Shown here: piece after piece, positions 14,855 to 60,199 of the stretch
Layout: every line of letters starts with the position of its first letter
Position numbering within the stretch: the first letter of the stretch is position 1
Origin: Diplonema papillatum
Lineage: Eukaryota; Euglenozoa; Diplonemea; Diplonemida; Diplonemidae
Assembly (NCBI GenBank): GCA_030068145.1
Contig: JAPJBO010000587.1
Location: 1 to 64,000, forward strand
Direction: 5' to 3'
DNA length: 64,000 nucleotides
The notes under the pieces: model-generated
Seen by the model: only the letters and a program-made list of their open reading frames with translations
Told to the model about the DNA's origin: nothing
Databases searched by the model: none
Made by a program: the position numbers and the translations under genes

Positions 14855-15300
14855 CCCCCCTGGACCCTTCACGATCCCGCTGAGGCTGAAGCCCCGCCCT
14901 TCCCCGGTCCCGCCAGCCTTCCCGGGTATTTCCTCGTTGGAAAAAGCTACCCGGGTTTCGTTCAGCTCGCTGACTAGAGTAGCTGCAAGCCAGGAGACAT
15001 TGCACCTCGGCGAGACGCGCGACTCACGGTCGACGCGTTTTTATATTCCCCCCACCGCGCGAGAGAAGCCGAAAGCGAACTGGTGGCAGGCGTGGACCCT
15101 TCACCAGTGCTCGCCGAGGCCGGAACCTCGCCGATCCCCCCCCCCCCCCCTCCCCCCCCCCCCCCCCCCCCAAGTCCCGGCACCCAGCTCACCGCCGGGT
15201 GTGTTTCCTCTCGCTCGAAATAGCCGCCCCTGCCGATCCGAGTTCAGCAAGGCTGGCGGAGAGTGGCTGCGACTCTTTAGGGGACATTGCACCCGCCACC
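14855..15300. repeat. Duplicated upstream segment of the ARF-GEF gene, with poly(C) runs
   Basis: Two diverged copies, 14859-15005 and 15090-15295, share TGGACCCTTCAC, CCGGGT...TTTCCTC and GACATTGCACC in the same order. Poly(C) runs lie at about 14836-14860 and 15137-15172. The pair sits directly 5' of the ARF-GEF start and may include promoter or 5' UTR. No trans-splice acceptor could be fixed. Confidence 0.5.
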
Positions 15301-15472
15301 GGCGGAGACACGTGCAGCTGCCCAGCAGGGACAAGCCCCCACCCCGGTTGGTGGCTCGGGCGTCAGCTGCGGGCATCTTGTTGGGGTTCCTTCCTGTGAA
15401 CACCCCCCCCTTCCCCCGCGTTTGCCCCGTTCCATTGCTGTTGGAACAGGCGCGTGGCCCCGCTTCCGGCCC

Positions 15473-18400
15473 ATGGATGTGCGCGCCGATTTGAAAGACT
15501 TCTGCCGAGAAACCCTTGAGAAGATCGAGAAGAAGGCGAAGAACCGATGCAAGAAGGTCGAGCAAGCCGTCTGCGCCGCGGCAAAGGCCCTCGAAGGCTG
15601 GGACCTGCGGCGCCGCGGCTCCGTGCAGCTTGCCGGCGGGTCGACCGAGGACGAGCTGGCTGACCAAGATGTGTTGGCGGCCACGTTTTGCGACGGTGCG
15701 AGCACCATCGTCAGCTTCAGCGGGACGCGGGGCGGCGCGCACTGCCCAGACGGCCTCGCGATGTCGTCGAAGAGGGGCAGCATGGCGGGGTGGAGCAGCA
15801 CCATTGTCGGCACGCCCGCGTCCATCGCCGCGTCGGTGGACCCTGCCGTGCAGAAGGTCGCGCTGAGCGTCATCTACGCCGTGATCGTCACGATGGACCA
15901 CGCCCCGTGCGAGTCCTGGGGGCTCCGGAAGGAAACCCGGGCGACGATTCTCCTCATTTGCGTGCAGTGCCTCCTCCGCTTCATCGAAGGCGGATACGTC
16001 ACGCAGCAAGCCATCCTCGACTTCGTCCCCGGATCAGCGACGGGGGTCGGGCGGCCTGTTGTCGAAGCTGTGATCGAGGTGCTCGCAGCCAACGCGACGC
16101 TGCAGGCGAAGAAGCCGGGGTTGCAGTTGTTGATCATCAGCGGGTTGGAGACCATCCTCACGTCCCCGCACTGCGGGGCGACGGCGACGCTGCTTCAGGT
16201 GGCGAGTCAGAGGTTGTTTAGGTACCACGTCTGCGCCGTGAACAAGGAGATCCGAGACCGCGCGAAGGTCGCGCTGCAGGCCTCGTTGATCTCGCTCCTG
16301 CATGAAGCCGAGCGGGAGTGCCGCGAGGTCAACTCCGTCGCTGCCCTCGTCGCGGCCGCCGCCGGCCTCGCCTGCCTCGTTGCCGCTGCCGCAGGAGGCG
16401 ACGCGCCGCCGGCGCCCAGCAGCGCTCCCCCGCACGGCGTCGCGCCCGGCGCCGCCGGCAGCGCGTGCTCCCCGCGAACGCCGTTTCCGGTCGCGAAGTG
16501 CGTCCTGCGGAAGTCGGCGTCGATGCTGTCGTTCCCCTCGGGTCCGGGGATGAAAACAATTCCCCAGCAGCAGCAACTGCAGCAGCACCAGCAAAAACAG
16601 CAACAGCACCAATATCAACACCAACAGCAGCATCAGCACCAACATCAGTACCAACAACAGCCCCAAAACCAACAGCAACAGCAACAACAGCAACAATATC
16701 TCCACCACCACCAACAACCACAACAACAACAACAACAACAACAACAACAACAACAACAACAACAACAACAACAACAACAACAACAACAACAACAACAACA
16801 ACAACAACAACAACAACAACAACAAACAACAACAACAACAACACAACAACAACAACAACAACAACAACAACAACAACAACAACAACAACAACAACAACAA
16901 CAACAACAACAACAACAACAACAACAACAACAACAACAACAACAACAACAACAACAACAACAACAACAACAACAACAACAACAACAACAACAACAACAAC
17001 AACAACAACAACAGCAACTCCACCACCATCACCACCACCAACAACAACAACCACAGCAATCGCACCACCAGCAACAGCCACAACAACAACAACAACCACA
17101 ACAACTGCACCACCACCACCACCCCCACCACCAACAACCGCAGCAACAACAGCAACTCCACCAACAACAATCACAACAGCAACAGCAACAGCAACAACAT
17201 CATCACCACCAACACCAACCCCAACAACAGCAACAGCAACAGCTACAGCAACCACAACCCCAACAACAACAGCAGCAGCATCACCACCACCCACAATCAC
17301 TAAAACAGCAACAGCAGCAGCAGCAGCAAGCTTCGAACCCGCCGACGCCCCCGTTTTTCGGCGCACAGTTCGCCGCCGCCGGCGCGTCGCCCGCGTCGCC
17401 GTTCGCGTCGAACCACAAGCCGCCCGACTTCCCGACGCCGCTGCCGCACGCGAACCCGCGCCCGCACCACCAGCGGACCCTGAGCTACACCGAGTCCTTC
17501 GCCCGGTCCTCTTCAGTCCCGCTCGCTGCCGGCGGCCTCGGCAACAACCACGCGTGCCTGCTCTCCCCCGTGTCCACGTGCCCCAGCCACCATCGCTCAT
17601 CGCCCCTCAACGACCCTTGCTTCCCCGCAGCCGGCGTCACGTCCCCGACGCCGCCGCTCTTCACCACTTTTTCGTTCGACCCTTCGTCCGCGCCGGCACC
17701 CGCCACCCCCGCGATGCCTGGCATCCCTGCAGCCCCGCAGCACCGGCCGGCTGGAAACCCGACAGACGTGACCCCCCAGACCCACTCCTTCACTCCGAAC
17801 CCGCTGGGGGCGAGCACAACCAGCCTCGCGAACTCATTGGGCGCGGTCAACGTGTTTGCGAACAGCAACGCGAGTCTCGACGCGTCGTTCGCCAACGAAA
17901 GCGTGACCCCCGTGTCGATGGCGCCGCACGACATCAACGTAGCGCTGCTCGCCGAAAAGCTGTCGCAAGCCCACAGCAACATGCTGTCGGAGCAGCCCCC
18001 CGCGCAGGGCCACCTCCGCGGGCGTACCGACAGCGTCTCGAACCTCGACGCGTCGTTTAACGCGACCGCGACCGCCACCAGCACCCTGTTCGGCGACACG
18101 GCGTCCTTCCCGATGCCGCGGCAGCAGACCGGGCCTGACGCGGGCGACCCCCCCGCTGCGCCTGCGGCGCTGTCGCCGCCCAGCAGGATCGTGCACGCGG
18201 GGTCCGCGTCGAACGGGCACGGCGGCGGAGGGAATGGGGGGGTCCCCGGGGGGGAGGGCGTGCAGCAGGCCGGGTCGATGTCGCCGCAGGTCGCGACGTG
18301 CCAGGCGCCGTCGTCGCGGCCGGTGAGCGCGAAGCACACGGTGACGTACTCGTTCACGTCGAGCGTCGACGAGTTCTCGGGCATGTCGCCAATGCCGTCG

Positions 18401-58955: not shown

Positions 58956-59539
58956 TTTCTTTTCTTCGTTTTTTTTTTTCTTCCTTTTTTTTTGCTTGTC
59001 TGCCTTGTTCTTAGTCCACCACCGTTCCCCCAAGCCCCAAAGCACCAGCGTGCTGACGGGGCCCTAAACACGTCACTGTCGCCGCAGCTGTGTTCCCCAC
59101 TTGAGTTGCGCGAAGTACTAGCAGAAGCTGGGCAACGTGAGCTACCCTGGCCTGGCAGGGGCCAGCAACAGCCAGGCGCTGTGAGCTCCCTGTGGAGGAA
59201 GCTAGGCACTGGCAACTAGTGCAGATGTGGGTTTGGCGCTGTGTTCTGCCGGAATACAGTAGCCGAGTGTTTGCCTCACGAGCGTACCGCTTAAATCTAG
59301 ACTGACCTTCCGCCGACAACCCCAGGAGTCGAGTAACACTGTGGAGGGCCTAAGTAACGTTCGTGGACAATGGCCGAAACCACCAATGACCACCAACCAA
59401 GGTACCCACCGATCCTCTTACCTCTTGTAGCCACCACTCTGACGACACTCAGAGCAGAGCACAAAATATACCTTCCCATAACGACGAAGGTCACCCGGAG
59501 TTTCAAGCGAATTTTTACTCTAATAAAAGCAAAACGCTT
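58956..59539. other. ABC gene upstream region
   Basis: 59445-59520 matches 23265-23340 and ends in TTTCAAGCGAATTTTTACTC, a form of the intron-end element. No separate gene is seen. Confidence 0.5.
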
Positions 59540-60189
59540 CACTTCTTCGCTCTGTTCAAACCGACGATGACGGCTGAGGTTGAGACCATTGTCGCAAAAA
59601 GGTTCAACAGCAGGGAAAAGTCCGTCGTTCTTCACTCACACGGCGAGATGCCTGTGCGCTTCGCGGTGAAGGCGAAGGATGGTATGCAATACCGAATTGC
59701 TGTCCCAACATCAGTGGGAATGCATGGCCAGGTGGGCACCTGCTGGCCGTAATGGAACCCTCAGGGGCTCGCAAGACGGCTATGATCCGTGTGTTAGCCG
59801 CATGATCATCCGACCAATCTTCCCCCAGCGATCCCCAGGTTTTGAGCAAGAAAGAAAGGAAACGTCTTGCACTTCTTCAAAATGTTTGAACCGACGAACA
59901 CGGCCGAGGTCGAGACGGTCCAGCAGAGAACAACGACGTGTCGTTTTACAAAGCCAGGCACGAGCCGCACACGATGACATGGAAGGATATGCACTTCACA
60001 GTGAAGACGAAGACTGGCGACACCGAGCTGCTGTCTAACATCAGCGGGAATGCATAGCCAGGTTGTGGACCTGCTGGCGTAATGGTTCAGGGGCTCGCAA
60101 GCCGACTATGATGCGTGTGTTAGCCGCACTATCATCCGACCAATCTTCCCCCAGGTTTGAGCAACAAAAAAGAAAGGAAAAGTCTTACA
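59540..60189 (+). pseudogene. Two decayed tandem copies of ABC transporter exon 1
   Basis: Unit 1 (about 59540-59870) and unit 2 (about 59871-60189) each repeat the 5' leader and about the first 270 bases of exon 1, at a spacing of 314-320 bp. Unit 2 is closer to the real exon but is frameshifted, has a stop within AGCGGGAATGCATAG and has lost the Walker A lysine context. Unit 1 is more diverged. Both end in ATCATCCGACCAATCTTCCC, which is absent from the real exon. They end just before the working ATG and now form its leader. Confidence 0.88.
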
Positions 60190-60199
60190 CTTCTTCAAA

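Follow-up and report, generated by a model that had tools for sequence, protein, structure and literature searches.

Partial exon-edge copies in three genes of Diplonema papillatum are probably ordinary local direct duplications

The window analyzed here is a stretch of 64,000 nucleotides of Diplonema papillatum (GenBank assembly GCA_030068145.1, contig JAPJBO010000587.1, positions 1 to 64,000 of the forward strand; C587:1-64000 in our numbering of this eukaryotic assembly of 271 Mb in 2910 contigs). It contains an ARF-GEF gene with a Sec7-domain exon, a dehydrogenase fusion gene with the exons E1 and E2, an ABC gene and an ELO elongase gene. An earlier note on this DNA had described partial, same-orientation copies of exon edges in three of these four genes, together with a duplicated region upstream of ARF-GEF. 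Copies were searched by comparing the window sequence with itself, and the first observation was confirmed: three genes have partial same-strand copies, affecting four exon edges in total, and with E-values of 1e-48 to 1e-128 for the main pieces their similarity is not due to chance. No exon-edge copy was seen for the fourth gene, ELO elongase, the model of which is incomplete. The duplication upstream of ARF-GEF (14855-15300) was not recovered, as unmasked comparison of this region gave nothing beyond C-run matches (27 and 16 bases) and pieces with E-values of at least 0.002.

The start of the Sec7 exon has a copy approximately 620 bp upstream (19723-20220 vs. 20343-20668; pieces 87.6% and 94.8% alike). 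The Sec7 domain match at 20461-21201 falls within the intact copy; the upstream copy has no acceptor AG, with AACGG in place of AACAG. The upstream copy also holds a GT...AG insert of 195 bp, possibly an intron-like mobile sequence, and an 81% relative of 19901-20091 is found at C747:61515-61700. In the dehydrogenase fusion gene, both edges of one intron are affected. The 5′ edge pair (34517-34827 vs. 34963-35335) differs by 5 substitutions in 214 positions of its exon part, and the 3′ edge pair (35371-35699 vs. 35806-36273) by 1 in 191. The E2 copy stops in the middle of the exon and then reads into a stop codon. Exon 1 of the ABC gene exists as three copies arranged head-to-tail at a spacing of 313-334 bp (starting at 59526, 59860 and 60173), of which two are decayed and the third, intact one bears the ABC ATPase domain match. 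The coordinates of all features are collected in Table 1.

According to the earlier note, all copies are frameshifted, stopped or deprived of a splice site. This describes the ARF-GEF copy, which lacks its AG, but is too strong for the dehydrogenase copies: the E2 copy keeps both AG and reading frame, and the E1 copy, despite a 2-bp deletion, keeps its GT. Consequently, a nested GT/AG pair lies inside the outer pair of the same intron. When E1 (ending at 34732) is joined to the intact E2 (starting at 36079), the match to the 3Beta_HSD family, which fails the cut-off otherwise (E 0.0013), passes it with an E-value of 3e-8. Judged from this restored domain, the outer splice sites may be the ones used.

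Table 1. Exon-edge copies, their intact counterparts and associated repeats in the window.
Feature	Position	Strand	Remarks
Two C-runs	14834-14860 and 15136-15171	+	mimic a duplication upstream of ARF-GEF
R3/R3b in the window	19718-19775, 20343-20398, 35449-35507, 46232-46258, 59338-59527
R3 repeat heading the ARF-GEF exon copy	19718-19775	+	acceptor AG changed to GG
Decayed copy of the Sec7 exon start	19776-20220	+	carries an extra GT...AG stretch, 19905-20099
Additional R3 copy	20241-20295	+	between both Sec7 exon copies
R3 repeat ending at the putative acceptor (AG) of the Sec7 exon, intact copy	20343-20398	+
Intact Sec7-domain exon	20399-21228	+	PF01369, E 2e-23; donor GTATG next; both edges predicted from sequence
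End of intact exon E1	34517-34732	+	donor GTACGT at 34733
E1-end copy within the intron	34963-35176	+	GT retained; 2-bp deletion
R5, 110-bp dispersed repeat	35193-35303	+	intron part of the E1 copy; 40 of 917 candidate places scored, own place included
R3-type element	35371-35507	+	3′ end provides the AG of the E2 copy
E2-start copy	35508-35699	+	AG intact; in frame with E1; 1 substitution in 191; one 3-bp deletion
Intron 3′ end preceding intact E2	35806-36078	+	R3 relic 35931-35968, then approx. 95 bp absent from the copy
Start of intact exon E2	36079-36273	+
R3-long element abutting the oldest ABC exon copy	59338-59527	+
Oldest ABC exon 1 copy	59526-59800	+	28.4% substitutions vs. the intact copy
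Second ABC exon 1 copy	59860-60124	+	15.5% substitutions; gaps; Walker A region altered (by eye)
Intact ABC exon 1	60173-60975	+	PF00005, E 1e-25; possible start ATG 60200; 3′ edge approximate

The earlier note had suggested a systematic process. The background of local duplication in this genome was assessed in further sequence sets. A direct duplication cluster was defined as at least 100 bp with copies at most 2.5 kb apart. Counted in this way, bases 20001-30000 of six contigs (C5, C55, C105, C155, C205, C305; 60 kb in total) contain 2.17 direct clusters per 10 kb (13 clusters), the window 1.88 (12) and a set of five multi-exon chaperonin genes, chosen out of 40 family matches and covering 25.4 kb, 1.57 (4). 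Loci surrounding the repeats R5 and R3 gave 2.55 (23) and 2.58 (22), respectively, for a non-random choice of loci. Inverted clusters were absent from the sample, the window and the chaperonin set and were found twice each in the R5 and R3 loci, i.e., 4 inverted vs. 74 direct clusters over the five sets. The window is thus ordinary in density, its value being similar to that of the sampled stretches; local direct copies cover 11.6% of it. Windows called coding-like by a rough codon-usage criterion carry a direct local copy in 3 of 11 cases in the sample, 0 of 21 in the chaperonin loci and 6 of 33 in the window; for the other windows, the respective numbers are 46 of 223, 10 of 75 and 32 of 222. 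Loci that are merely re-cuts of the window (L001-L003, L009, L034, L061) were left out of the local-copy tests. What stands of the suggested systematic process looks like general local direct duplication, as dense in sampled stretches as in the window, rather than a specific targeting of exon edges. An excess of copies over the background is not seen by density and is only weakly indicated by their placement.

Other genes of the assembly were inspected for comparable copies. In six control genes (five chaperonins and one proteasome subunit), self-duplication reaches an exon match at none of 15 introns. Two of these genes hold several intronic direct duplications, and some of those in chaperonin introns end 5-29 bp before the exon match. 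The matches of three protein families in the assembly (40 for chaperonins, 24 for proteasome subunits, 13 for MCM proteins) revealed no clear local partial exon copies, with low power for decayed ones. Among the 13 MCM matches, no local pieces overlapped beyond a few positions. Two proteasome loci with family matches overlapping in profile coordinates, C970 and C859, were checked at sequence level and have no self-duplication; a third overlap, at C295, amounts to 11 profile positions. On the other hand, coding-like exon copies were found at L051 (97%, splice boundary included), L060 (98%, exon interior) and L036 (R3 plus exon in a 661-bp unit). Local copying of exon sequence thus recurs in the genome and is not universal, and it is not clearly directed at edges.

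Several of the copies adjoin the repeat R3, a module of 57 bases with long forms of approximately 190-250 bp. Its end coincides with the putative acceptor at three places, namely the intact Sec7 exon, the E2 copy and one ELO exon, and it lies directly against the oldest ABC copy. The repeat or its variant R3b also occurs in 6 of the 15 control-gene introns, in five of them at most 130 bp before the next exon match. All ten R3/R3b matches in this set, each of them in one of the five chaperonin genes, are in sense direction, and a uniform position within introns is unlikely (P = 1e-6, matches treated as independent). When intron ends derived from family matches, some of them roughly placed, were compared with each other, 19 intron 3′ ends gave six matching pairs, all in sense orientation, four of which involve window introns previously known to hold R3; the 18 intron 5′ ends gave one pair, in antisense. 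Many copies of R3 are away from coding-like sequence: 79 matches have an AG within approximately 20 bases, and 13 of these precede coding-like DNA. The repeat also occurs as 67-bp arrays. One count scored 87 of 92 R3 matches, and the count of AG-bearing matches and their flanks used 100 of 106, the remainder being too close to a locus end. Apparently, R3 supplies the acceptor AG in several genes.

The repeats of this genome also tend to share one direction. Outside the window, different repeat families at one locus form 134 same-direction and 40 opposite pairs, with 32 loci leaning to the same and 7 to the opposite direction; the co-orientation is due to the families A, E, G, H, R3 and R5 and is not clear for B, C, D and F. 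Within the window, 47 repeats are on the plus and 3 on the minus strand, one array being counted several times. Sense-biased insertion within co-oriented gene blocks is perhaps the reason (loci L004-L074 and the window). R5 was considered as a candidate introner and rejected, as most of 30 copies viewed by eye lie in non-coding-looking DNA and are flanked by runs of C or G.

Based on these results, we consider it likely that the exon-edge copies are ordinary, frequent local direct duplications which are filtered by selection and spliced out as part of an intron. Same-strand local duplication is frequent in all sets examined, the copies are found within introns, and use of the outer splice sites restores the dehydrogenase domain. 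According to this explanation, the genome would often duplicate stretches of approximately 70 to 1000 bp locally and in the same direction, with slippage or template switching during replication or repair as the most likely mutational step, so that duplications would land in intergenic DNA, in introns and across exon edges. Selection would eliminate those inside conserved exons, and a duplication of an exon edge would be tolerated when the outer, original splice sites remain in use: the extra copy would then leave with the intron, could persist, and would be free to gather indels and to lose its splice site. Four survivors in three genes of the window would reflect local chance together with this selection filter.

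Several observations weigh against this explanation, besides the non-random choice of repeat loci and the rough codon-usage call mentioned above. Of the 12 splice edges placed in the window, some of them roughly, four are inside local copies, where 1.5 would be expected (P = 0.05-0.075). Removal of dispersed repeats and short arrays, a choice made post hoc, lowers the expectation to 0.7 (P = 0.004-0.02). Further, divergence within copy pairs is uneven. The dehydrogenase 3′ pair has 1 substitution in 191 exon positions vs. 12 in 80 of the adjacent intron element (Fisher 2e-6; the body of the element was used because the alignment of the R3 end is uncertain). The ARF-GEF pair has 7 in 178 exon positions vs. 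11 in 58 of the R3 part (Fisher 6e-4), where the exon count omits the first 59 aligned exon bases with 8 substitutions as perhaps intronic; with all aligned bases, it is 15 in 237 (Fisher 0.007 vs. 11 in 58). Finally, in three pairs, 106-135 bp between the copies are absent from the other copy, unlike in a plain tandem duplication; one of these stretches contains R3 and another a short piece of R5. In a neutral copy made in one event, exon divergence should reach no less than half of the intron divergence. On this assumption, the exon divergence observed has a Poisson chance of 9e-6 in the dehydrogenase 3′ pair and of 0.006 in ARF-GEF. In the dehydrogenase 5′ pair, exon plus adjacent intron (5 in 246) also differ from the farther intron, the end of which is aligned with some uncertainty (10 in 66; 1e-4); as the low divergence extends 32 bases into the intron, the change in divergence is not at the splice site. 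A single uniform duplication event explains only poorly why the exon parts of two pairs are more alike than their R3 parts. Copying of the exon parts may have followed that of the R3 parts, gene conversion may have refreshed them, or the intron parts may mutate faster.

The uneven divergence would fit a process anchored in R3, in which, within an intron that holds several R3s, a break or stalled fork at one R3 is repaired from another R3 at the exon acceptor and the copied tract runs into the exon, resulting in a young exon copy next to old R3s. Gene conversion between older duplicates would give a similar picture. R3 stands at the head of the copy or directly next to it in ARF-GEF, at the dehydrogenase 3′ edge and at the oldest ABC copy, and it adjoins the copies in L036, L051 and L060. 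Also, 6 of the 13 coding-like exons with an R3 acceptor have a local copy (two from the window and two from one L036 duplication), compared to 52 of 231 coding-like windows, the same loci included. However, neither the dehydrogenase 5′ edge copy nor the L060 copy begins in R3, the first 32 intron bases of the 5′ edge pair are identical, and 24 of 66 non-coding flanks of AG-bearing R3 have copies as well. Moreover, the six control-gene introns with R3 show no exon copies, and the Poisson value for ARF-GEF rises to 0.06 when all aligned exon bases are counted. Local R3 partners rank 11 and 27 of 54, and 4 and 4 of 54; since a 98% pair in L042 ranks 9, such ranks do not discriminate, and the test for closest relatives among R3 partners was discarded as uninformative. 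Overall, we regard R3-anchored repair as unlikely, and we are no less doubtful about the broader proposal that R3 and R3b are mainly sense, acceptor-supplying repeats at intron 3′ ends which act as anchors for template switching and leave exon-edge copies as footprints of repair.

The earlier note had also offered collapsed haplotypes and template switching during intron gain. Two alleles joined head to tail in the assembly might account for dehydrogenase exon copies that are 98-99.5% alike. Alleles would, however, diverge evenly, without filler and without separate inserts such as 19905-20099; instead, divergence is uneven within one pair, the ABC copies differ by 15-28%, and no second contig with these exons was found among the scored candidates (40 of 1288, 40 of 365 and 3 of 3). 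An assembly artefact is, therefore, disfavored and in our view highly improbable. That the copies are traces of intron gain, by tandem exon duplication (Rogers model) or by introner insertion, is hardly more credible. The duplications do cross splice boundaries like a potato case discussed below (PMC4974935), and unrelated genes appear to have R3 in common at their intron 3′ ends. Nevertheless, the copies sit within or upstream of existing introns, and the 18 intron 5′ ends share no sense-oriented similarity (the one pair being antisense); as entire units, these introns are therefore not copies of a single element. Replication slippage or template switching may still be the mutational step. 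In sum, the earlier observation was mostly right and the idea of a special exon-edge process mostly not.

If the copies are indeed ordinary duplications, this genome can bear a heavy load of exon-edge duplications because splicing hides them, and pseudo-exons beside real exons need not signal misassembly. Should repair anchored in R3 be true instead, it would show in concrete terms how a repeat that invades introns can lead to exon shuffling on the scale of a single intron, and such a repeat would be tied to a continuing source of spare exon fragments and alternative splice sites.

The window contains several further features. Fragments of large-subunit (LSU) and small-subunit ribosomal RNA (rRNA) genes are present on both strands (7143-7553, 42920-43045, 44467-44814, 52567-53090). 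A pair of sequences at 43081-43328 and 47165-47422, 92.7% alike, resembles LSU rRNA by eye only and is not listed by Rfam. A long open frame at 2236-6654 looks by eye like a long interspersed nuclear element with endonuclease and reverse transcriptase. Tandem arrays consist of 92 copies of a 15-bp unit (30972-32349) and 15 perfect copies of a 25-bp unit (51524-51905). A search for the chlorophyll-binding protein family gave no match; hence, the host is perhaps not photosynthetic.

Known systems resemble the exon-edge copies and R3 in part. Introners are like R3 in their sense orientation and probably in being common to the ends of unrelated introns, apparently with the acceptor (PMC9860276, PMC7789003). 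Some of the known introner families have target-site duplications or terminal inverted repeats. However, an introner extends over the whole intron and supplies or recruits its two splice sites, whereas R3, with approximately 57 bp (190-250 bp in its long forms), is confined to the 3′ end of introns of approximately 615-6090 bp, whose 5′ ends are unrelated. As R3 does not make the whole intron, we do not class it as an introner. Adjacent same-strand copies across a splice boundary are present at both dehydrogenase edges and in ARF-GEF, and in the ABC gene as a head-to-tail array. A comparable tandem genomic duplication is described for the potato RdRp gene, where an intron 3′ end with its acceptor was directly duplicated together with the beginning of the following exon (PMC4974935). 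There, the duplicate became new intron and exon sequence; in the window, the copies decay in existing introns or upstream of them, and several genes are affected. In Drosophila, introns were gained by tandem duplication of coding sequence (PMC2891723). The likeness lies in a local direct copy beside splice signals, but the Drosophila genes gained introns, whereas the copies in the window sit in or upstream of introns already present. We file the copies with the already known local duplications across exon edges.

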